Shown here piece after piece: positions 24,661 to 43,372 of a stretch of 64,000 bases of DNA; positions within the stretch are counted from its first letter, which is position 1; every line of letters begins with the position of its first letter. This stretch comes from Mesorhizobium sp. Its GTDB lineage: Bacteria; Pseudomonadota; Alphaproteobacteria; Rhizobiales; Rhizobiaceae. The notes beneath the pieces are model-generated. The model was not told the DNA's origin and made no database searches. It saw only the letters and a program-made list of their open reading frames with translations. The stretch is taken from positions 1 to 64,000 of the forward strand of contig NZ_JAEULZ010000013.1 in the NCBI RefSeq assembly GCF_016793485.1, in the 5' to 3' direction. The translations under genes and the position numbers were made by a program.

Positions 24661-24687
24661 GTTTAGTTGAAACAGAATTTACTAAAC
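24661..24687. promoter_or_regulatory. Inverted repeat in the divergent promoter region, candidate operator
   Basis: GTTTAGT (24661-24667) and ACTAAAC (24681-24687) form a perfect inverted repeat with 13 bases between the arms. It lies in an A/T-rich part of the 288-base region between the binding-protein gene (start 24546) and the AraC gene (start 24835). The dyad could bind the AraC protein or another regulator. Nothing else structured is visible in this region. Confidence 0.45.
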
Positions 24688-24834
24688 ACGCAAGGGGAAA
24701 AATGTTTTGCGCTGCACAATCGTCGGAGCGCTAAATCCGGGATTGGCCGTATTGACGGCCGGCGATCCGCGCATCACAATTTTCGTCAACGAGGCGACGA
24801 ACAGAACAAGCAACGCAGCCTCGGGAGGAAGCAG

Positions 24835-25659
24835 ATGGCCACCTCGATCCGCCTTTTCCGAGGCGCGTTCGGGCACGTTTCGGTGCTCAACGTCGCGAGC
24901 GATTTCGTCACCCATGCCCATGCCGAGGCGCATATCATCCTTTGGCTCGACGGCGCTGCGGGCGAGATGACGATCGGGCAGGAGAAGGTGCGGCTCGGGC
25001 CGGGCGTTGCGGCCGGCATCAACTCCTTCCAGCCCCACAGCCATGCTCTATCTGCCGACGGTAGGGTGGGCAGGTTTCTCGCCTTCTACATCGACCCCGA
25101 ATGGTTTTATCGCAGGCGTGGCGTTGTGCGCGGCCAGCCAATTTTCGCCTCGGCCTCGATCCCGATCGACATCTGGCTGCATCGGGCAGCTGTGCTGCTC
25201 TACGAGGAACTGGACGTGGGCGAGGCTGGAGAACTCGCCCTTTATGAGATCGAGCGGCTGATCGACAGCCTGGCCGATGCGGCTGATTCGGTCCGTCCTC
25301 GGCATGCGGGCACTCTGCGTGGCGATGAACTCGACTTCCGCGTCCGCAAGGCGATCGACCTCATGAAAGCCAATGTCTGCGAGCGCATCTGCTTCGACGA
25401 GGTTGCTAAGGCGGTCGGTCTGTCGCGCCCGCATTTCTTCGCGTTGTTCAAGGAACAGACCAGCCTGACCCCGAATGTCTACTGGAATGCGCTGCGCATG
25501 CAGGAGGCGCTCAGGCAGTTGCAGTGGTCACGCGAGCCGTTGACGTCGGTCGCCTGGAATCTCGGCTTCACCACGCAGGGCAACTTCACGCGCTTCTTCC
25601 GCGACCATGCCGGCGTGCCGCCGACGCTATATCGCGAGGCGGCCAGAACCGCCGCTTAG
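24835..25659 (+). CDS. AraC-family transcriptional regulator
   Basis: I chose the ATG at 24835, directly after GGGAGGAA; the frame is open to 24667 but unsupported. The 274-residue protein has a cupin-like sensor N-terminal half (FVTHAHAEAHIILWLDGAAG, GINSFQPHSH). The C-terminal DNA-binding half has two helix-turn-helix units: ICFDEVAKAVGLSRPHFFALF and TSVAWNLGFTTQGNFTRFFR with GVPPTLYR. It is divergent from the ABC/dihydroxyacetone operon, which it probably controls. The molybdenum hydroxylase operon lies just downstream in the same direction and is a second possible target. Confidence 0.92.
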   Translation: MATSIRLFRGAFGHVSVLNVASDFVTHAHAEAHIILWLDGAAGEMTIGQEKVRLGPGVAAGINSFQPHSHALSADGRVGRFLAFYIDPEWFYRRRGVVRGQPIFASASIPIDIWLHRAAVLLYEELDVGEAGELALYEIERLIDSLADAADSVRPRHAGTLRGDELDFRVRKAIDLMKANVCERICFDEVAKAVGLSRPHFFALFKEQTSLTPNVYWNALRMQEALRQLQWSREPLTSVAWNLGFTTQGNFTRFFRDHAGVPPTLYREAARTAA

Positions 25660-25761: not shown

Positions 25762-26202
25762 GTGGCGAAAGTCAGGATTTCGAGCGTCATCGAAGCGCCG
25801 ATCGAGAAGGTCTGGGCGCGCATTCGCGACTTCAACGGATTGCCGAGCTGGCATCCGCGCATGGTCGAGAGCGAAATCGAAGACGGCAAGAAGGCGACCG
25901 ATATCGGCGCGGTGCGCAAATTCAAGCTGGCGTCCGGTCCCATCGTTCGCGAGAAGCTCATCGCTTTTTCCGACGATGACTTCCTCACCACCTACTCGAT
26001 CATCGAACACCCGGCGCCGATCAGCAACCATACGGCGACGCTGAAGCTCGATCGCGTCACAGACGGCGACCGGACCTATGCCGTGTGGACGTCTGAATTC
26101 GACGCGCCTGCCGAGAAGGCCGACGAGTTGGCCAAGGGTATGGGCGAAAACGTCTTCCAGGGCGGTTTCAACGCGCTGAAGAACCTTCTCGAAAGCAAAT
26201 AA
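25762..26202 (+). CDS. SRPBCC (START-like) domain protein, CoxG-type position
   Basis: I chose the GTG at 25762, preceded by GGGAGGA, giving 146 residues. The protein has the SRPBCC pattern: VRISSVIEAPIEKVWARIRD at the start, an FNGLPSWHPRMVESEIEDG segment, and a long C-terminal helix ELAKGMGENVFQGGFNALKNL. Such ligand-binding proteins accompany CO-dehydrogenase-like molybdenum hydroxylases, where CoxG belongs to the same superfamily. It opens the operon and is followed by the FAD subunit after 13 bases. It may help assembly or bind a hydrophobic intermediate. Confidence 0.85.
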   Translation: MAKVRISSVIEAPIEKVWARIRDFNGLPSWHPRMVESEIEDGKKATDIGAVRKFKLASGPIVREKLIAFSDDDFLTTYSIIEHPAPISNHTATLKLDRVTDGDRTYAVWTSEFDAPAEKADELAKGMGENVFQGGFNALKNLLESK

Positions 26203-26215
26203 GGCGGAGGGCGCC

Positions 26216-27001
26216 ATGCCGCTTGCCCTGAAGACCTGCTCGACGATTTCCGAAGCTGGTACCGCGCTGAAAGAGGCCGGTACACGTTATCTTGGCGGCG
26301 GGACATTGGTTGTCCGCGCGGCCAATGAGGGCGACGTATCGGTTTCTACCCTTGTCCGCTCGACCGATCCGGCACTTTCCTCGATTTCGATCGACGGGGG
26401 CAGGGCAACGATCGGCGCGTCCGTCACCATGTCGGCGGTTGCCCGGCACCCCGGCCTATCTTCGATCGCGAAGGTCGCTAAGGCTGTCGGCGGGCCGGCA
26501 ATCCGCAACATGGCGACTGTCGGCGGCAATCTGTTCGCCGCGTCGCCCTATGGCGACTTCACGGTTGCGCTTCTCGCTCTGGATGCGACGGTGCATACGA
26601 CCGAAGGCCATCTGGGCGCCGAAGAATTCCTGGCCGGCCGTGACGGCAGGGTCGTCTCCGCCGTCAGCTTCGATGTTCCATCGGCGGAGCAATTCCGCTT
26701 CGTCAAGATATCGCGCATCAAACCGAAGGGCGTTTCGGTGCTCAGCATTGCCGCTCTCGTCGAAAACGCGGGTGGAAAGATCAACGGCGCAAGGATCGCG
26801 CTCGGCTGTATGGCGGATCGTCCGATCCGCGCCAAAGCTGCCGAGAAAGCGCTCGCCGGTGCAACGCTGACGGAGGAGGGCGTTGCGCCGGCGGTGGCCG
26901 CGATCGGCGAGGGCACGCGCCCGCTGACCGATGCGATCGCAAGCGCATGGTACCGAGGGGAGGTGCTTCCGGTGCATTTCCGCCGCCTGTTGCTGGAGTA
27001 G
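26216..27001 (+). CDS. Molybdenum hydroxylase FAD-binding (medium) subunit, CoxM-like
   Basis: The 261-residue protein has the FAD_binding_5 features: RYLGGGTLVVRAANEG near residues 24-39, and GGPAIRNMATVGGNLFAASPYGDF near 92-115, which binds FAD. A C-terminal CO_deh_flav_C domain follows (KISRIKPKGVSVLSIAALV). It passes electrons from the iron-sulfur subunit to the outer acceptor. At 261 residues it is slightly shorter than usual (about 280-290). It is followed after 43 bases by the [2Fe-2S] subunit. Confidence 0.92.
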   Translation: MPLALKTCSTISEAGTALKEAGTRYLGGGTLVVRAANEGDVSVSTLVRSTDPALSSISIDGGRATIGASVTMSAVARHPGLSSIAKVAKAVGGPAIRNMATVGGNLFAASPYGDFTVALLALDATVHTTEGHLGAEEFLAGRDGRVVSAVSFDVPSAEQFRFVKISRIKPKGVSVLSIAALVENAGGKINGARIALGCMADRPIRAKAAEKALAGATLTEEGVAPAVAAIGEGTRPLTDAIASAWYRGEVLPVHFRRLLLE

Positions 27002-27044
27002 CAGGAGCGGAAAAAACGCGGACAGCACGCCACAGGGAGGAAAG

Positions 27045-27527
27045 ATGGCGAAGGTTCCGGTCCAGTTCACGTTGAATGGCGAAGAGAAGGCCGATTTTGT
27101 CGACGGCGGCGCGACCCTTCTGAAGGTGCTGCGAGAAAAGGTAGGCGACACCTCGGCCAAGGCAGGATGCCAGCAGGGCACATGCGGGTCCTGCTCGGTC
27201 ATCATCGACGGCGAGTTGCGGCTGTCGTGCCTGACGCTTGCCGAAACCTGTGGTGGCGCTGAAATCCACACCACGGGCGGCCTGGCGACGGACGGTGTTC
27301 TCCATCCTCTGCAGCGCGCCTTCATGGACGAATTCGCGGCGCAGTGCGGTTTCTGCACACCGGGCATGATCATGGCGGCAAAGGTGCTGTTGGACCGCAA
27401 CCCGAACCCCTCCCACGAGGATGTCGTCGAGGCGCTGTCAGGAAACGTGTGCCGCTGCACCGGCTACGAGCCGATCATCCGCGCCGTGCTGACGGCAGCG
27501 CGCTCCAATTCGCAGAACGCGGCGTGA
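27045..27527 (+). CDS. Molybdenum hydroxylase [2Fe-2S] (small) subunit, CoxS-like
   Basis: I chose the ATG at 27045, after AGGGAGGA, giving 160 residues, the usual size. The N-terminal plant-type cluster is in GCQQGTCGSCSVIIDGE with a later Cys in RLSCLTL. The C-terminal helical domain has the second cluster in QCGFCTPGMIM and NVCRCTGYEPII. It carries electrons from the molybdenum cofactor to FAD. It lies between the FAD subunit and the split large subunit. Confidence 0.95.
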   Translation: MAKVPVQFTLNGEEKADFVDGGATLLKVLREKVGDTSAKAGCQQGTCGSCSVIIDGELRLSCLTLAETCGGAEIHTTGGLATDGVLHPLQRAFMDEFAAQCGFCTPGMIMAAKVLLDRNPNPSHEDVVEALSGNVCRCTGYEPIIRAVLTAARSNSQNAA

Positions 27528-27534
27528 GGTCCAG

Positions 27535-28899
27535 ATGAAACTCGCCAAGAGCTATTTCGCCGACCAGCGCACAGACGACCTAAAGGAACTCGGGCAAGGG
27601 CTGCCGCGCTCCGACGTGCCCGGACACGTCACCGGCAAGACGACCTACTTCGCCGACCGCACCTTTCCCGGCATGCTCTATCTCAAGATGGTGCGCAGCC
27701 CTCATCACCACGCGCGTATCAGGAGCGTCGATCTCTCTGATGCGGAGAAGCATCCGGGCGTCCACCGCATCCTCACCCACAAGGACATCCCACATAACCT
27801 CTACACGATCCTCATCCTCATCCAGGTCGGTCCGGAGGATGAGCATGTGCTAGCCGAGGACAAGGTGCGGTGGAAGGGCGAGGCCGTCGTCGCAGTTCTG
27901 GCCGACAGCGAACGTGCGGCGAACGAAGCTGCCGCCAAGGTGAAGGTCGACTACGAAGTGCTGCCCGATGTGCTCGACATCGACTCCGCGCTCGCTCCCG
28001 GCGCGCCTATCGTGAACGAGCATCACGGCCAGAACTACTACATGTACGACAGTGGCCAGTCGCGGAAGGTTCGCTACGGCGATGTCGAGAAGGGCTTCGC
28101 AGAGGCCGATCATATCCTCGAACAGACCTATTACTCGTCGCCGATCGAGCAGGCGCCGATGGAGACGACCGGCTGCATCGTGACTCCGGACGGCAACGAC
28201 CGCTTCACCTGCTACACCAACACGCAGGCGATGTTCTTCACGCTCGACAACACGTCGATCATCCTGCAGATGCCCGGCCACAAGCTCCACATGGTCGGCG
28301 GTACGGTGGGCGGCGGCTTCGGCGGCAAGGTGGACGTCACGGTCGAGCCGATCGCCATCCTCGCCGCCAAGCTGACAGGCAGGCCAGTGTCCTTCATCTA
28401 CGGTCGCTACGAGGAGATGCAGATTTCCTCGCCGCGCGCGGCCGAGAAGATCGTACTCAAGGACGGCGTCATGAAAGACGGCCGCATCGTCGCGCGACAG
28501 GTCTGGGGCTACACTGACGCCGGCGCCTATTCGCGCCACTCGCCCTATGGGGCGCAGAAGGGCGCGGCGCACTATCCCGGCCCCTACACGATCCCGAACG
28601 TCTGGGTCGATACATGGTGCGTCTACACCAATAGAACGCCGTCCTCGGCAATGCGCGGCTTCGGCGTTACCATCGCCGACTTCGCGCTGGAGGTTCAGAT
28701 GGACAAGCTGGCGCGCCTGATCGGCATGGATCCGCTGGAGTTCCGCTTCATCAACGCCTACCGCGACGGCGACATGAAAGCGCATCGCCAGCCGACGACA
28801 GGGGCGGCGCTGATCGAATGCATGCAGGAAGCTTCCCGCGTCGCCAATTGGCCCATCGCGGAAAAGTATCTTGAGATGTCGTCCTACAAGGAGGTTTGA
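27535..28899 (+). CDS. Molybdenum hydroxylase large subunit, N-terminal protein of a split pair
   Basis: The 454-residue protein starts with the a/b-hammerhead domain (VPGHVTGKTTYFADRTFPGM, then SPHHHARI). It continues with the first molybdopterin-binding half: GGTVGGGFGGKVDVTVEP (near 254-271) and SSAMRGFGVTIADFALEVQM. It ends cleanly after a helix (EKYLEMSSYKEV). The remaining cofactor-binding half, including the catalytic Glu, is in the next gene, three bases after the stop. Together they equal one normal large subunit of about 790 residues. Sizes resemble the split nicotinate dehydrogenase of Eubacterium barkeri. The substrate is unknown. Confidence 0.9.
   Translation: MKLAKSYFADQRTDDLKELGQGLPRSDVPGHVTGKTTYFADRTFPGMLYLKMVRSPHHHARIRSVDLSDAEKHPGVHRILTHKDIPHNLYTILILIQVGPEDEHVLAEDKVRWKGEAVVAVLADSERAANEAAAKVKVDYEVLPDVLDIDSALAPGAPIVNEHHGQNYYMYDSGQSRKVRYGDVEKGFAEADHILEQTYYSSPIEQAPMETTGCIVTPDGNDRFTCYTNTQAMFFTLDNTSIILQMPGHKLHMVGGTVGGGFGGKVDVTVEPIAILAAKLTGRPVSFIYGRYEEMQISSPRAAEKIVLKDGVMKDGRIVARQVWGYTDAGAYSRHSPYGAQKGAAHYPGPYTIPNVWVDTWCVYTNRTPSSAMRGFGVTIADFALEVQMDKLARLIGMDPLEFRFINAYRDGDMKAHRQPTTGAALIECMQEASRVANWPIAEKYLEMSSYKEV
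28888..28895 (+). promoter_or_regulatory. Strong ribosome binding site inside the end of the first large-subunit gene
   Basis: AAGGAGGT is a full Shine-Dalgarno sequence, seven bases before the ATG at 28903. It is formed by the codons of the last residues YKEV of the upstream protein. It decides that the second half is translated on its own, rather than being the remnant of a frameshift. Confidence 0.8.
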
Positions 28900-28902
28900 G
28901 CC

Positions 28903-29907
28903 ATGACGATCCGGCGTGGCCGCGGCGTTGCGGCGGTAAACTATCCGACGGGCATGAATCTCGGCGGTGACCCCAGCCAGGCGCTCGTTCATTCGACGCC
29001 GACGGGCAACTTCATGGTCACGCTGTCATCGGTCGATCTGGGGCAGGGCCTCAAGCAGGTCATGGCGCAGATCTGCGCCGAGACGATCGGCGTGAAGACC
29101 GAGCAGGTCATCATCGACACTGCCGACACCGACACAGGCCCGCATTGCATGGGCACCTTCGCCTCGCGCGGCACGCACCGCATCGGCAACGCCGTCATCC
29201 AGGCGGCGCGAGAGGCACGGCAGGTCATGCTGGAGGTTGCGGCGGAGGCTCTGGAGGTAGACGCCGGCGATCTCGACACTGACGGTGACGGCAACATCCA
29301 CGTCAAAGGGGCGCCGCAAAAATCAATCTCGATTTTCGACACCGCGTTGATGGCTCACTTCAAGCTAGGTCGCTCGATCTCGGGCCGGGGCATGTTCCTT
29401 GTTCCACGTTCCTACCCCGAGGTGGAAACGGGCGCGATGAAGCCGTCAACCTGCTATGCGCACGCCTGCACGGTTGCCGAGGTCGATGTCGACGACGAGA
29501 CCGGCGAGGTCACGGTTATCTCGATGAAGAATGTCTTCGAGATTGGCCGCGCGCTCAATCCGAAGATGGTCGAGCAGCAACTGGTCGGCGGTTCGTGGAT
29601 GGGCATTTCGCACGCGCTCTATGAGACGACAGAGCCCTATTATCCGAAGCGCGATCACGCCGGCACCGACTTCAATGAATATCTGATGCCGGGGCCGGGT
29701 GACATCGCGCCGACCGAGATCATCGTGCTTGAACGTCCCGCCGAGGATGGACCATACGGCGCAAAGGGCCCGGGCGAGATGTGCGCCAATCCACAGATAC
29801 CCGCGCTGGCAAACGCTATCTTCGATGCCGTCGGCGTGCGCATCGACATGATGCCGATAACGCCGGAGCGCATCCTGCGCGCACTCAGGGAAAAGCAGGC
29901 GGCCTAG
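28903..29907 (+). CDS. Molybdenum hydroxylase large subunit, C-terminal protein of a split pair
   Basis: The 334-residue protein begins MTIRRGRGVAAVNYPTGMNL, as the second molybdopterin domain does inside a fused subunit. It holds SSVDLGQGLKQVMAQICAET, MGTFASRGTHRIGNAV and, near residues 285-292, GAKGPGEM, whose Glu is the catalytic base of the xanthine oxidase family. Nothing of the family core appears missing when both proteins are joined. A perfect ribosome site precedes it. The AAA maturation gene begins at the base after its stop. Confidence 0.9.
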   Translation: MTIRRGRGVAAVNYPTGMNLGGDPSQALVHSTPTGNFMVTLSSVDLGQGLKQVMAQICAETIGVKTEQVIIDTADTDTGPHCMGTFASRGTHRIGNAVIQAAREARQVMLEVAAEALEVDAGDLDTDGDGNIHVKGAPQKSISIFDTALMAHFKLGRSISGRGMFLVPRSYPEVETGAMKPSTCYAHACTVAEVDVDDETGEVTVISMKNVFEIGRALNPKMVEQQLVGGSWMGISHALYETTEPYYPKRDHAGTDFNEYLMPGPGDIAPTEIIVLERPAEDGPYGAKGPGEMCANPQIPALANAIFDAVGVRIDMMPITPERILRALREKQAA

Positions 29908-30786
29908 GTGTCCCGGCTGGCCTCCGAAGTAGCCATTTCGCCGGAGGCTTTGGCCTCCGGTCTCGAGGCGATGAACTACCTCGCCGACGACGGACTGGCC
30001 ACGGCCATCTTCCTTGCCATCCGCCTCGGCAAGCCGCTGCTTCTTGAGGGCGCGCCCGGCGTTGGCAAGACCGAGGCTGCGAAGGCCATTGCCAAGCTGC
30101 TCTCGCGCGATCTTGTCCGCTTGCAATGCTACGAGGGTATCGATGCGGCCCACGCGCTCTATGAGTGGAACTATCAGCGCCAGCTGCTCGCCATCAGGCA
30201 GGCGGGCGAACGAGAGGTCGATATCTACGACGATCGTTTCCTGATCGCGCGGCCGCTGCTTCAGGTTTTGCAAGAGCCGGAAAGTCGGATGCTGCTGGTC
30301 GACGAGATCGACCGTTCCGATCATGAGTTCGAAGCGTTGCTGCTGGAATTCCTCTCCGATTTCCAGATCACGATTCCTGAGCGTGGCACGCTGGTTGCGA
30401 CCGGCCAGCCGCTGGTCGTGCTGACCTCAAACCGCACGCGCGAACTTGCCGAGGCTCTGCGCCGCCGCTGTGTCTATCACTGGATTTCCTATCCGGATGC
30501 CGAGCGGGAGGCAGCGATCATCATGCTGCGCGCTGGCGATGTTGCGGAAGCCACCGCTCGCGCGGTGGCAAAGGCGGTCGGCGAAATCCGCCAGAAGCCT
30601 CTCGCGAAGCCCCCCGGCATCGCCGAGGCGGTCGAATGGGCGAATGCGGCGACCGTGCTCGAAAAAGGCGGTAGCCCCTGGCCGGAAGCGTTTCGCCGTG
30701 CGCTCGGCGTCCTGATCAAGGACGAGGAGGATATCTCCTTCCTCAATCCGGAACTCGATCGCATCCTCGGAAGGGCGATGGCGTGA
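29908..30786 (+). CDS. MoxR-type AAA ATPase, CoxD-like maturation factor
   Basis: The 292-residue protein starts at a GTG directly after the previous stop. It has Walker A GAPGVGKTEAAKAIA (near 48-62), Walker B MLLVDEIDRSD (near 128), sensor 1 VVLTSNRTRELAEALRRRC and the MoxR helical C-terminus. CoxD-type ATPases help insert sulfur and copper into the active site of CO dehydrogenase; related pairs serve other molybdenum hydroxylases. It overlaps the VWA gene that follows, its usual partner. Confidence 0.9.
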   Translation: MSRLASEVAISPEALASGLEAMNYLADDGLATAIFLAIRLGKPLLLEGAPGVGKTEAAKAIAKLLSRDLVRLQCYEGIDAAHALYEWNYQRQLLAIRQAGEREVDIYDDRFLIARPLLQVLQEPESRMLLVDEIDRSDHEFEALLLEFLSDFQITIPERGTLVATGQPLVVLTSNRTRELAEALRRRCVYHWISYPDAEREAAIIMLRAGDVAEATARAVAKAVGEIRQKPLAKPPGIAEAVEWANAATVLEKGGSPWPEAFRRALGVLIKDEEDISFLNPELDRILGRAMA

Positions 30787-31913
30787 CGTCACTCCCTCGC
30801 GGTGCGCGTCCCTTCGCGGACTTCGCCAGGCATCTGCGGCGGTTTGGTTTTGTTGTGGCCGGCGAGCAGACGATTGCGTTCCTGCAAGGCGTTGCCCTGC
30901 TCGGCCCGCGCTCGATGGAGGATATCAAGCAGGCGGCTCTGGCGACGCTCAGTCCCCCGCACGACCGCGTTGCGGAATTCGACGCGCTCTTTCGAAGCTT
31001 CTTCTACGGGGAGGCGACGGTCACCGTTGACGCCGAGGGCGACGAGGATACCGAGGTCAAGGACGACAGCGGCGTCGAGCGGGAAGGGGAGCAATTGGAA
31101 TTGAGGCAGGAGGAGAGCGGCGAATCTGCCTCGACGCTGGAGCAACTCGGTCGCCGGACGTTTCGGAATGACCAGGATGCGCTTGCGGCCTTCTGCAGGG
31201 CGCTGCCATCGGCCTTGCCGCAGCGCCGCTCGTTCCGTCCGGTGCGAACGCGGTCGCGTGGTACACTCGACCTTAGGCGCGCTTTGCGTGCCATCGTACG
31301 CGCAGACGGCGACGTGCCCGCGCCACCCTTCCGCCGCCGGCCAACTTTGTCCCGCAAGCTTTTGATCCTGATCGATATTTCGGGCTCGATGAAGCTGCAT
31401 ACCGACGACTATCTCAAGCTCGCTCATGCTGCCGTGCAGGCTGCCGACCGAGTCGAGGTCTTCACGCTCGGCACGCGCCTGACCCGCATCACCCGCGCCC
31501 TGCGCGTTCGTGATTCCGGCGCGGCGCTGAGCCGGGTTGCCGCGCTTGTCGAGGATTGGGACGGCGGCACGCGTATCGGGCCAACGCTCTCTGCCTTCCT
31601 GTCGGTGCCGCGTTTCGCTGCCTTCGCGAGGGGAGCCGCAATCGTGCTCCTGTCGGATGGGCTGGAGCGTGGCGACCATGCCGAACTGGAAACCGCTGTC
31701 CGCCGGCTTGGCGCGCGCGCGTTCCGCCTGTCGCTTGCCACGCCGCTCGCCGGCGATCCGCGTTTTGCGCCGAAGACCGCGGCGCTGAAGGCGATCCTGC
31801 CGCATCTCGACGATCTGGTGGATGGCTCGTCGCTGCCGCGCCTCGCCGAGTTTATGCTGACGCTGGCGCGGCCGGCCCCGTCGGCGGAAGCGGTCTGGAA
31901 AAGGAGGGCCTGA
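30783..31913 (+). CDS. VWA-domain protein, CoxE-like partner of the AAA ATPase
   Basis: The 376-residue protein starts at a GTG that overlaps the ATPase stop. The N-terminal half is an MoxR-partner domain with an acidic low-complexity stretch near residues 80-120. The C-terminal half is a von Willebrand A domain with the metal site DISGSM near residues 198-203, followed by WDGGTRIGPTLSAFL and VLLSDGLERGD, which complete it. CoxD/CoxE-type pairs act as a chaperone for molybdenum hydroxylases. It is followed by an amidohydrolase, with the stop and start overlapping (TGATG). Confidence 0.9.
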   Translation: MTSLPRGARPFADFARHLRRFGFVVAGEQTIAFLQGVALLGPRSMEDIKQAALATLSPPHDRVAEFDALFRSFFYGEATVTVDAEGDEDTEVKDDSGVEREGEQLELRQEESGESASTLEQLGRRTFRNDQDALAAFCRALPSALPQRRSFRPVRTRSRGTLDLRRALRAIVRADGDVPAPPFRRRPTLSRKLLILIDISGSMKLHTDDYLKLAHAAVQAADRVEVFTLGTRLTRITRALRVRDSGAALSRVAALVEDWDGGTRIGPTLSAFLSVPRFAAFARGAAIVLLSDGLERGDHAELETAVRRLGARAFRLSLATPLAGDPRFAPKTAALKAILPHLDDLVDGSSLPRLAEFMLTLARPAPSAEAVWKRRA

Positions 31914-32800
31914 TGCACAAGGCGATCGATTCCCACTTCCATATCTGGCGCCAGAAGGATCAGCCCTGGCTGGTCGGCCCGATGGTGCCGCGCATCTTCG
32001 GACCCTACGAGGCGATCCGGCGCGACTATCCGATCGAGGAATTCCTTGCTGACCAGAAGGGCTCCAGGGTCGAGAAGGCGGTCTATGTGCAGACCAACTG
32101 GGCGAAGGAGGATTTCGAGAACGAGGTTGCCTTCCTGAGCGAGACCGCGAAAGCGAGCGGCTGGCCGCATGCGATCGTCGGCTATGCCGACATGACGGTC
32201 GATGATGTTCGTCCGCAGATCGACCGGCTGGTGAAATATCCGCTGCTGCGCGGCGTGCGCATGCAGCTTCACTGGCACGAGACGCCGGCCTTCCGTTTCG
32301 CCAAGTCGGCCGACCAGGTGATCGATCCAGTCGTCAAGAAGAATGTTGGACGGCTGAAGGACTATGGTCTGTCGTTCGACCTCCAGCTTTTTCCGGCGCA
32401 GATGAAGGACGGGCTGCAACTCGTCGGCGAGAACCCGGAGACGAACTTCATCCTGACCCACACCGGCATGTTGACCGATCTCGCGGAGCCGGTGGTCGAG
32501 GAATGGAAAGCGGGGCTGCGGACGCTCGCGCAGGCACCCAACTTCTATGCCAAGCTCTCCGGCCTCGGCACCTTCGTCCATCGCAACGATGCGGACGTGA
32601 TCGACACGGTGGTCGACAACGCCATCGCCATCCTTGGCAGCGACCGCTTGATGTTCGGCTCCAATTTTCCGATCGAAAAACTCTGGACCACCCATGCCGA
32701 GCTGATCGCAGCCCATCGCAAGGCAGTCGCAAGACATGGGGCAGTGGCAGAGGCGGACATTTTCTGGAACACGGCTGAGCGGATCTACAGACCGGCTTGA
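31913..32800 (+). CDS. Amidohydrolase-2 family metallohydrolase
   Basis: I chose the ATG at 31913, after AAGGAGGG, giving 295 residues. Family features are the N-terminal metal pair DSHFHIW (residues 6-12), the His in QLHWHETP, FILTHTGM and the C-terminal FGSNFPIEKLW, which replaces the more common GSDYP. Relatives hydrolyse lactones or amides or decarboxylate cyclic acids. It is the last gene of the molybdenum hydroxylase operon, so it probably hydrolyses the hydroxylated product or opens its ring. The actual substrate is unknown. Confidence 0.88.
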   Translation: MHKAIDSHFHIWRQKDQPWLVGPMVPRIFGPYEAIRRDYPIEEFLADQKGSRVEKAVYVQTNWAKEDFENEVAFLSETAKASGWPHAIVGYADMTVDDVRPQIDRLVKYPLLRGVRMQLHWHETPAFRFAKSADQVIDPVVKKNVGRLKDYGLSFDLQLFPAQMKDGLQLVGENPETNFILTHTGMLTDLAEPVVEEWKAGLRTLAQAPNFYAKLSGLGTFVHRNDADVIDTVVDNAIAILGSDRLMFGSNFPIEKLWTTHAELIAAHRKAVARHGAVAEADIFWNTAERIYRPA

Positions 32801-40930: not shown

Positions 40931-41925
40931 GCGTCGATCTCCTGAGCTACGGCGCTTTCTTCCTGACCATGGCGCTGACCTACGCCATCATCTGTCTCGG
41001 GTTGAACGTCCAGTGGGGGCAGACCGGCCTGTTCAACGTCGGCATTGCCGGCTTCGTCGCGGTTGGAGCGTACGTGTCGGCCTTGCTGACCACGCCTGAG
41101 GACCCGGCCCGGCTTGGCGGCTTCGGGTTGCCGATCGTCGTCGGCTGGGTTGGCGGTGCGGTTGCGACGGGCCTCGTCTCCTTCTTGATCGGCGCACTGA
41201 CGATACGGCTACGCGCCGACTATCTCGCCATCGCGACCTTCGGCGTGGCTGTCGTCGTGCAGCTTGCTGTGCTCAATCTCGAATGGATCACTGGCGGCCC
41301 GTTCGGCATCGGTTTCATTCCGCGCCCCTTCGCCGATCAAGCCGGCAATCCGCTGGTCTTCGGGCTGGCCAATCTCGCCGTGTTGGTAGCCATCGTTCTC
41401 GTCCTCTACCTCGTGCTGGAGCGGCTGGCGCGAAGCCCGTGGGGTCGGGTGCTGCGCGCCATACGCGAAGACGAGCAGGCAGCGCTTGCGCTCGGCAAGA
41501 ACGCGACGAAATTCCGCCTGCAGGCCTTCGCCATCGGTGGCGGCATCATGGGGCTTGCCGGTGCGGTGCAGGCGCATTTCATCGGCTTCATCGCGCCGGA
41601 CAACTACGTGCCGATGCTCACCTTCCAGGTCTGGGCGATGCTGATCGTCGGCGGCTCCGGCAACAACAGGGGCGCCATCCTTGGTGCGGTGCTCGTGTGG
41701 GGCATCTGGGCGATGTCGGCGGCCGCCGTCTCCGGTCTGTTCCCGCCCGGACAGCAGGCGCGCGCGGCGTCGCTGCAGATCGTCATGATCGGCGTCGCGC
41801 TCTGCCTCATCCTGCTTCTGCGGCCGCGCGGCATTCTGGGCGAGCGCCGCGTCGTCTCGCGGCATATCGGTGCGCGCGGCGCAAATTCCGAAAATGGACA
41901 AACTTCAGATGCCAAAAGTTCCTGA
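40927..41925 (+). CDS. LivM-type ABC permease
   Basis: The 332-residue protein starts at the ATG overlapping the LivH-type stop. It has about nine helices with LivM features: LGLNVQWGQTGLFNVGIAGF, IRLRADYLAIATFGVAVV, SPWGRVLRAIREDEQAALALG (ATPase contact) and VWAMLIVGGSGNNRGAILGA. A 20-residue hydrophilic tail ends the protein. The next gene, the reductase fusion, probably begins inside this tail. Confidence 0.93.
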   Translation: MSVDLLSYGAFFLTMALTYAIICLGLNVQWGQTGLFNVGIAGFVAVGAYVSALLTTPEDPARLGGFGLPIVVGWVGGAVATGLVSFLIGALTIRLRADYLAIATFGVAVVVQLAVLNLEWITGGPFGIGFIPRPFADQAGNPLVFGLANLAVLVAIVLVLYLVLERLARSPWGRVLRAIREDEQAALALGKNATKFRLQAFAIGGGIMGLAGAVQAHFIGFIAPDNYVPMLTFQVWAMLIVGGSGNNRGAILGAVLVWGIWAMSAAAVSGLFPPGQQARAASLQIVMIGVALCLILLLRPRGILGERRVVSRHIGARGANSENGQTSDAKSS

Positions 41926-43372
41926 TCGCACCACGCTTGCCGACGGCCTGTCGATCAGCCGCCTCGTCTGCGGCCTGTGGCAGGTCGCTGACATCGAGAA
42001 ATCAGGGCAGATCATCGATCCCGAGCGCGGTGCAGACGCGCTGGAAGCCTACGCTAAGGCAGGCTTCGATACGTTCGACATGGCCGACCACTACGGCAGT
42101 GCCGAGATCATCAGCGGCAGGCTGCTGTCGCGATACCCCGACGGAGAAAAGCGTCCGCTCGCTTTCACGAAATGGTGCCCCGAACCCGGTCCGATGACGG
42201 CCGATGTCGTCCGCAGCGGCGTGCAGGAGCGTCTCGACAGGCTGGGCGTGAAGAAGGTCGACCTGCTGCAGTTCCACTGGTGGACCTTCGAGCATCCGGG
42301 CTGGCTCGATGCGCTGCATGAGATGGCGCGGCTGAAAGAGGAGGGGCTGATCGGCGCGATCGGCGTCACCAATTTTGATGCCGCGCACCTGCGCGTCGCG
42401 CTGTCCGACGGCGTTCCTCTTGCCACCAACCAGGTCTCCTTCTCGCTGGTCGATCGCCGCGCGGCAGGCGACCTCTCCGCGCTTTGCCGCGAGAAGGGCG
42501 TGAAGCTGCTCGCTTACGGCACGCTCTGCGGCGGGTTCCTTTCGGAGAAGTGGCTGGGCAAGCCGGAGCCAACGGAAATACCGGACTGGAGCCGCTCAAA
42601 ATACAAGCGTTTCATCGACGTTGCCGGCGGCTGGGAGCCGTTCCAAGGCATCCTCGCCGCTGCATCCGAAATCGGCCGCAAGCACGGCGTCTCGTTGTCC
42701 AACGTCGCGTCCCGCTGGGTGCTGGAGCATGAGGCGGTGGCAGCGACCATCATCGGCGCGCGTCTCGGTGAAAACGAACATCGCGACGACAATCTGAATG
42801 TTTTCGGCTTCGCGCTCGACGCAGAGGACCGGGCGCGGCTGGACGCGGCATTCGCGAAGACGAAGCCGGTGCCCGGCGATTGCGGCGACGAATACCGCAA
42901 GCCGCCCTATCTCACGGCGTCGGGCGACCTCAGCCACCATCTCGACGCGATTCCCTCGGTCTTCAAGGCCGATCCTGTGCCGGGCAAGCCGGGCCGCAGT
43001 CGCGTGTCCTCGGGCAGCGTGTGGGAGCCGATTGCCGGCTACAGCCGGGCAGTGCGCGTCGGCGATACCATCCGCGTGTCGGGCACCACGGCGACGCATG
43101 GCGGCGACCGCTGTGTCGCGCCCGGCGATCCTGGCGCGCAGACGACATACATCCTCGACAAGATCGCGGCCTCGATCTCCGCGCTCGGTGGCTCGACGGA
43201 GGACGTCGTGCGCACGCGCATCTATCTCAGGGACGCAGCGCAGTGGGAGCCGGTCTCGCGCGCGCATGGTCGCGTGTTCGGCGAGGTGCTGCCGGCCAAT
43301 ACGATGATCGCAGCCGGCGGCCTGATCGGCGACTATGAGGTCGAGATCGAGGCGGAAGCGGTGGTTGGCTAG
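41894..43372 (+). CDS. Fusion of an aldo/keto reductase and a Rid-family (YjgF/YER057c) domain
   Basis: The frame is continuous over 492 residues from the ATG at 41894 (another ATG at 41909; no clear ribosome site). Residues about 15-330 are an aldo/keto reductase: Asp/Tyr in FDTFDMADHYGS, Lys in LAFTKWCPEP, His in LLQFHWWTFEH, then ATIIGARLGENEH. After a linker with GDCGDEYRKPPYL, residues about 380-492 are a Rid domain: VGDTIRVSGTTATHGGDR, TYILDKIAASISALGGSTED, TRIYLRD and MIAAGGLIGDYEVEIEAEAV. The position of RidA Arg105 holds Asn (LPANTM). Both halves may act on one carbonyl/imine substrate. It is co-directional with the importer genes. Confidence 0.9.
   Translation: MDKLQMPKVPDRTTLADGLSISRLVCGLWQVADIEKSGQIIDPERGADALEAYAKAGFDTFDMADHYGSAEIISGRLLSRYPDGEKRPLAFTKWCPEPGPMTADVVRSGVQERLDRLGVKKVDLLQFHWWTFEHPGWLDALHEMARLKEEGLIGAIGVTNFDAAHLRVALSDGVPLATNQVSFSLVDRRAAGDLSALCREKGVKLLAYGTLCGGFLSEKWLGKPEPTEIPDWSRSKYKRFIDVAGGWEPFQGILAAASEIGRKHGVSLSNVASRWVLEHEAVAATIIGARLGENEHRDDNLNVFGFALDAEDRARLDAAFAKTKPVPGDCGDEYRKPPYLTASGDLSHHLDAIPSVFKADPVPGKPGRSRVSSGSVWEPIAGYSRAVRVGDTIRVSGTTATHGGDRCVAPGDPGAQTTYILDKIAASISALGGSTEDVVRTRIYLRDAAQWEPVSRAHGRVFGEVLPANTMIAAGGLIGDYEVEIEAEAVVG

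Follow-up and report, generated by a model that had tools for sequence, protein, structure and literature searches.

The large subunit of xanthine-oxidase-type enzymes is normally a single chain. An exception is the nicotinate dehydrogenase (NDH, NdhFSLM) of Eubacterium barkeri, which has a selenium site and whose substrate, nicotinate, is known. NDH has been described as the product of four genes (PMC10331938), with a molybdenum subunit that consists of two proteins (PMC5746545). The account of the four genes ndrB1B2B3B4 of Sphingomonas melonis likens both B3 and B4 to the large subunit of nicotine hydroxylase (PMC5239795), and judging from these descriptions, ndrB3/ndrB4 is possibly another split. 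As for maturation, CoxD and CoxE of Oligotropha are reported to act in the sulfuration and metal insertion that mature the molybdenum site of CO dehydrogenase (PMC4240915).

We analysed a 64-kb stretch of DNA from a Mesorhizobium sp. (this whole stretch is "the window" below). Nucleotides 26216-29907 very probably encode a molybdenum hydroxylase that belongs to the xanthine-oxidase family, has four subunits, and permanently divides its molybdenum subunit between two proteins, which we call A and B (Table 1). Jointly, A and B contain all of the domains that make up the large subunit of a molybdenum hydroxylase (Pfam, above cut-offs), and membership in the family is given by the hammerhead, MoCoBD_1, and MoCoBD_2 domains along with the FAD and double [2Fe-2S] partners. 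The four motifs that a preliminary description of this DNA had named were all located (GGGFGGK at A259, AMRGFG at A372, LGQG at B46, and GPGE at B289). The GPGE of B aligns with the GxGE of NdhM and CoxL, and we take its glutamate to be the catalytic-type glutamate of that motif. The coordinates and lengths in that description (454 and 334 aa), its three-base gap, and its Shine-Dalgarno (SD) sequence 7 bases before the ATG match the sequence exactly, and its four subunit sizes (261, 160, 454, and 334) are correct. Elsewhere in the window (41870-43372), a single frame joins a Ribonuc_L-PSP (Rid) domain to an aldo/keto reductase.

Table 1. The split molybdenum hydroxylase operon in the Mesorhizobium sp. 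window.
Feature	Coordinates	Strand	Basis and remarks
AraC-type regulator, cupin-like N-terminus	24667..25659	+	TTG ORF, start provisional; Pfam HTH_18; Cupin_2 under cut-off
SRPBCC-fold protein	25762..26202	+	Pfam PF10604; GTG start inferred from homologues
FAD subunit, 261 aa	26216..27001	+	Pfam FAD_binding_5 and CO_deh_flav_C
[2Fe-2S]2 subunit, 160 aa	27045..27527	+	Pfam Fer2 and Fer2_2; cysteines present
A, first half of molybdenum subunit, 454 aa	27535..28899	+	hammerhead PF01315 and MoCoBD_1 PF02738
AAGGAGGT, ribosome-binding site of B within last codons of A	28888..28895	+	7 nt before B ATG at 28903
GCC spacer between TGA of A and ATG of B	28900..28902	+	sequence
B, second half of molybdenum subunit, 334 aa	28903..29907	+	MoCoBD_2 PF20256; GPGE glutamate
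MoxR-type AAA+ ATPase, CoxD-like	29908..30786	+	Pfam AAA_5, PF07728
VWA protein, CoxE-like	30783..31913	+	Pfam PF05762 VWA_CoxE
Amidohydrolase (Amidohydro_2)	31913..32800	+	Pfam PF04909; start overlaps VWA gene stop

A and B share a reading frame in the window, where nothing but TGA-GCC separates them, so we needed to exclude a nonsense mutation. A recent nonsense mutation or a sequencing error in a fused gene could account for this arrangement, as a single TGA and one codon are all that lie between the halves. However, in a scan of named genomes, all of the best 80 of the 495 relatives found (by title mostly Mesorhizobium and other Rhizobiaceae/Phyllobacteriaceae) have the split, and B starts one base past the stop of A, in another frame, in 70 of these 80 and in frame in 10. 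For the final tally, 216 loci less 64 repeats, 5 incomplete loci, and 1 locus with a frameshifted A (L013, Sinorhizobium sp. BG8) gave 146 distinct complete loci, including the window, with 51-100% identity to the window in A and 61-100% in B. (Left out of the 216 were L001, L190, L184, and the VWA locus L193, and also L174-L176, L178, and L179, whose genomes were already tallied otherwise.) The preliminary description had proposed looking for the split in related genomes, and had held that close relatives with an intact fused gene, and a single indel explaining the break, would speak against a stable split. All 146 loci are split, and none has a fused A-B gene.

The arrangement of the two genes varies. 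Among the 138 loci in which they are adjacent, the relative frame is 0 in 22, 1 in 102, and 2 in 14, and the match to B begins between 14 nt before and 11 nt after the end of the stop codon of A, most commonly 1 nt after it (97/138). A and B are apart in the other 8 of the 146 loci. One of these has a gap of 206 nt that contains no long ORF; the other seven, which all have the tailed form of A discussed below, have gaps of 582-1563 nt (L231, L232, L234, L237, L239, L243, and L245). The inserts encode an EamA transporter in L239 and L245 and a GFA domain in L237, and by eye the inserts of L231, L234, and L243 resemble the EamA transporter. Relatives whose split genes differ in frame relation or have another gene inserted between them rule out a recent frameshift or nonsense mutation: in 124 of the 146 loci, the genes are in another frame relation or apart. 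Also, B comes with an SD and an ATG of its own, and A and B are each under purifying selection (comparison of the window with four relatives gave dN/dS values of 0.044-0.137 in A and 0.014-0.101 in B). We regard a recent mutation or sequencing error as extremely improbable. A second possibility is recoding, in which read-through of the stop codon sometimes yields one A-B protein. This could occur in the window's frame, and frame 0 is found in 22 adjacent loci, but another 116 adjacent loci have relative frame 1 or 2, the genes are apart in 8, and the start of B lies as close to the stop of A as is usual for two genes. The frame relations and the inserted genes rule out read-through as a general rule, and we consider even its occasional use highly improbable. 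The split is an old, widespread, and working design that other genomes share.

When the order was sampled evenly, with the window's genome included, A (E ≤1e-110) turned up in 58 of 347 genomes and 25 of 134 genera, so the enzyme is accessory. From these 58 genomes we examined 59 loci (one genome twice), of which 4 were incomplete and 55 were complete; all 55 are split. In the plasmid copy of Sinorhizobium sp. BG8 (L013 and L190), the frameshift is near residue 354 of A and B is intact.

The junction is complete. The preliminary description had suggested an alignment with fused homologues to locate the break, and a loss of core residues there would have counted against it. In the alignment with ten fused enzymes, the break falls at the seam between domains, no residues are missing, and the start of B coincides with the start of the second half in the fused enzymes and in NdhM. 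With no fused gene among the 146 loci and no loss at the junction, the description's claim of a stable split, rather than a sequencing frameshift, is borne out. An AlphaFold model of the read-through A-B chain, made with 14 close rows, had a mean pLDDT of 35.7.

The same description had interpreted the junction as designed re-initiation. The SD sequence itself is there: the + strand of the window contains AAGGAGGT a single time, and runs of at least 5 of its bases, at the spacing seen for B, are found at 4% of positions inside A (window background). The perfect SD before B is peculiar to the window. Among the best 80 of 495 relatives, 74 match the SD over 4-5 bases and the other 6 over 6-7 bases. 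Nevertheless, at least 4 consecutive SD bases precede B in 80/80 of these relatives (versus 18% of background positions), and at least 5 do so in 22/80 (versus 5%), which gives B a ribosome-binding site of its own in the relatives as well. As A and B are not adjacent in 8 loci, translational coupling is dispensable, and the sequences do not bear out a designed re-initiation. We propose that translation of B relies on B's own SD and may be coupled to the termination of A where the genes are adjacent.

How does this split relate to that of NDH? The E. barkeri enzyme (PDB 3hrd) also has four subunits, and its molybdenum subunit is split at the same seam between domains. The best solved match of A is 3hrd_A (E = 3.5e-64) and that of B is 3hrd_B (E = 2.6e-46). 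The identical break site and these top matches would fit a single ancient split, shared with NDH and followed by re-fusion in the related fused enzymes. However, B is only about 35% identical to its NDH counterpart, and NdhM is closer to the best 16 fused enzymes (40-45% identity) than to the split family (34-36%). In trees of 49, 33, and 36 rows, NDH grouped with the fused enzymes, and constraining it into the split family was rejected (AU test, P = 0.0086, 0.0061, and 0.0048), with the caveats that these trees and tests included one NDH sequence and that the tree tool gave a long-branch warning. The minimum on the trees is two changes. We consider a shared split improbable; the two splits are probably independent, as the preliminary description had suggested, and as the three trees and three AU tests support. 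The second-best solved match of both A and B is 4-hydroxybenzoyl-CoA reductase HcrA (PDB 1rm6), which has the same domains. In contrast, its large subunit is fused, and A and B miss the equivalog cut-off (271 and 205 versus 994.55 bits).

The split is not confined to the Rhizobiales. Among plasmid-collection records, it is present in the actinobacterium Nonomuraea gerenzanensis (60% identity in A and 66% in B), in the haloarchaeon Salinigranum rubrum (52% and 61%, with the frames overlapping by 8 nt), and in Yoonia (a rhodobacterium) and Shinella; outside the Pseudomonadota, we saw it in such plasmid records only, a single one each for the actinobacterium and the haloarchaeon. In the Yoonia and Salinigranum records, both halves are annotated as "molybdopterin cofactor-binding domain-containing protein." In 299 genomes of Pseudomonadota, matches to B (E ≤1e-40) form two groups, with either 70-100% or 32-37% identity. 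The second group comprises 14 places with open frames of 774-1175 codons, one of them with a TAG inside the match, and the 9 of these 14 that we examined (L043-L051) are all fused. The window's genome itself also has fused paralogues of the same fold family (at C45, C44 (two), and C32), which are 26-35% identical in B.

The operon order is AraC, SRPBCC, FAD, FeS, A, B, MoxR, VWA, and amidohydrolase, and this order is kept in the best 80 of 495 relatives, some of them truncated by contig ends. Among these 80 loci, A, B, FeS, and MoxR were retained in 80/80, AraC (upstream, scored at ≥50% identity) and FAD in 78, SRPBCC in 77, and VWA and the amidohydrolase in 74. The order is mostly kept in the sister clade with tailed A as well. 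Several gene variants were seen around these operons. One untailed subgroup has an EthD-domain gene that separates B from MoxR (L136:7960-8283; also L139, L141, L142, L260, L261, and L263). The tailed sister clade usually has two SRPBCC genes (L137, L138, L140, L143-L155, L187, L188, L254-L259, and L264-L269), and a fusion of SMP-30/gluconolactonase with isochorismatase is encoded downstream in that clade (L148:12246-13850). Near the operon of Mesorhizobium ciceri, an ABC permease domain is joined to a strictosidine-synthase/SMP-30-like domain (L073:16302-18422).

The CoxD-like MoxR gene and the CoxE-like VWA gene that the preliminary description had listed are present in the operon, and they follow the structural genes, as in aerobic CO dehydrogenase (CoxMSL/CoxDE). 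The enzyme differs from CO dehydrogenase in that its large subunit is split and in its loop, which is AMRGFG instead of the Cys-bearing active-site loop of CoxL; also, the cut-off of TIGR02416 (CoxL) is missed (178.7 and 127.4 versus 991.15 bits). The VWA gene is the genome's only VWA_CoxE match. Both of the genome's XdhC_CoxI matches are on other contigs than the split operon, and one of them adjoins the fused paralogue at C32.

From these homologies, we propose the following scheme. A would give the hammerhead and the first cofactor-binding half, with the GGGFGGK and AMRGFG loops, and B would give the second cofactor-binding half and the glutamate of GPGE. The two would come together in a single active site, as NdhL and NdhM do, and would assemble with the Fe-S and FAD proteins. 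The MoxR and VWA proteins of the operon may then mature this two-chain site, activating the molybdenum much as CoxD and CoxE do in CO dehydrogenase. Electrons would flow from molybdenum through the two [2Fe-2S] clusters to FAD and then to an acceptor.

There are two candidate types of substrate. One candidate, which we put forward tentatively and with less than even confidence, is a small and probably nitrogen-containing heterocycle, with the product passing to the adjacent amidohydrolase. Tyr14 of B aligns with NdhM Tyr13, which has been modelled as holding the ring nitrogen of nicotinate (PMC5746545). Some fused relatives also have a tyrosine there, so this is a weak hint as to the substrate. 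Another candidate, which might equally turn out to be correct, is an aldehyde or lactol that feeds lactonase-like hydrolases, with no nitrogen heterocycle involved. Under their cut-offs, NCBIfam models match the enzyme to glyceraldehyde dehydrogenase and the amidohydrolase to fuconolactonase; SMP-30 and MBL hydrolases adjoin the operon in the sister clade; and an aldehyde or lactone would fit the sugar-type transporters and lactonase-like hydrolases among the neighbours. The window also has an aldehyde dehydrogenase neighbour, but it is retained in only 2 of the best 80 of 495 loci, and the isochorismatase and cyclase-family neighbours suit the breakdown of amides or heterocycles instead.

Of the 146 loci, 48 encode an A with a C-terminal tail of 71-182 aa. 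(The window's own A does not.) The C-terminus of A is RRR in all 48 tailed loci versus 0 of 98 untailed loci. In the 18 tails that we inspected, proline makes up 17-27% of residues, and the end is RF[SI]S..G.RRR with small variants. The AGG-AGG of the RRR codons is often the SD of B too, and one could suppose that RRR is a by-product of this AGGAGG. We rejected this explanation, as loci with B >1 kb away still have RRR, encoded there by codons such as CGC-CGC-CGC. In 5 of the 7 loci with B 582-1563 nt away, RRR is kept without AGGAGG; because it is retained where B is distant, RRR is kept as protein. One locus (L033) gave the impression of a fused gene, given that the frame of its second half is open for 884 codons, but its A is in a different frame and terminates at RRR.

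The tail goes along with a flotillin. We checked 104 + 16 loci for a long operonic flotillin gene, and 7 had too little upstream DNA to judge. Where there was enough upstream DNA, the gene was present in 29/29 tailed loci and in 0/84 untailed loci. The tailed rows are one clade in the tree, so the link between tail and flotillin is a correlation with one origin and may reflect shared ancestry. One explanation, which we offer as a speculation and think rather unlikely, is that the split opened a free C-terminus at the seam and that the tail docks the enzyme on the membrane scaffold formed by the operon's flotillin.

In the titles and openings of abstracts that we searched, with thin coverage of the subscription literature, we found no description of the split family, its operon, or its link to flotillin. 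As the sole solved example of a split molybdenum subunit, NDH could pass for a curiosity, and an apparently independent second split changes that. That Mesorhizobium, an actinobacterium, and a haloarchaeon share a split at this seam indicates that the two halves are separable modules, and the split family forms an enzyme subfamily that has an operon of its own and as yet no name. If the proposal for the tailed, flotillin-linked clade is true, then splitting the gene opened a new point of attachment.
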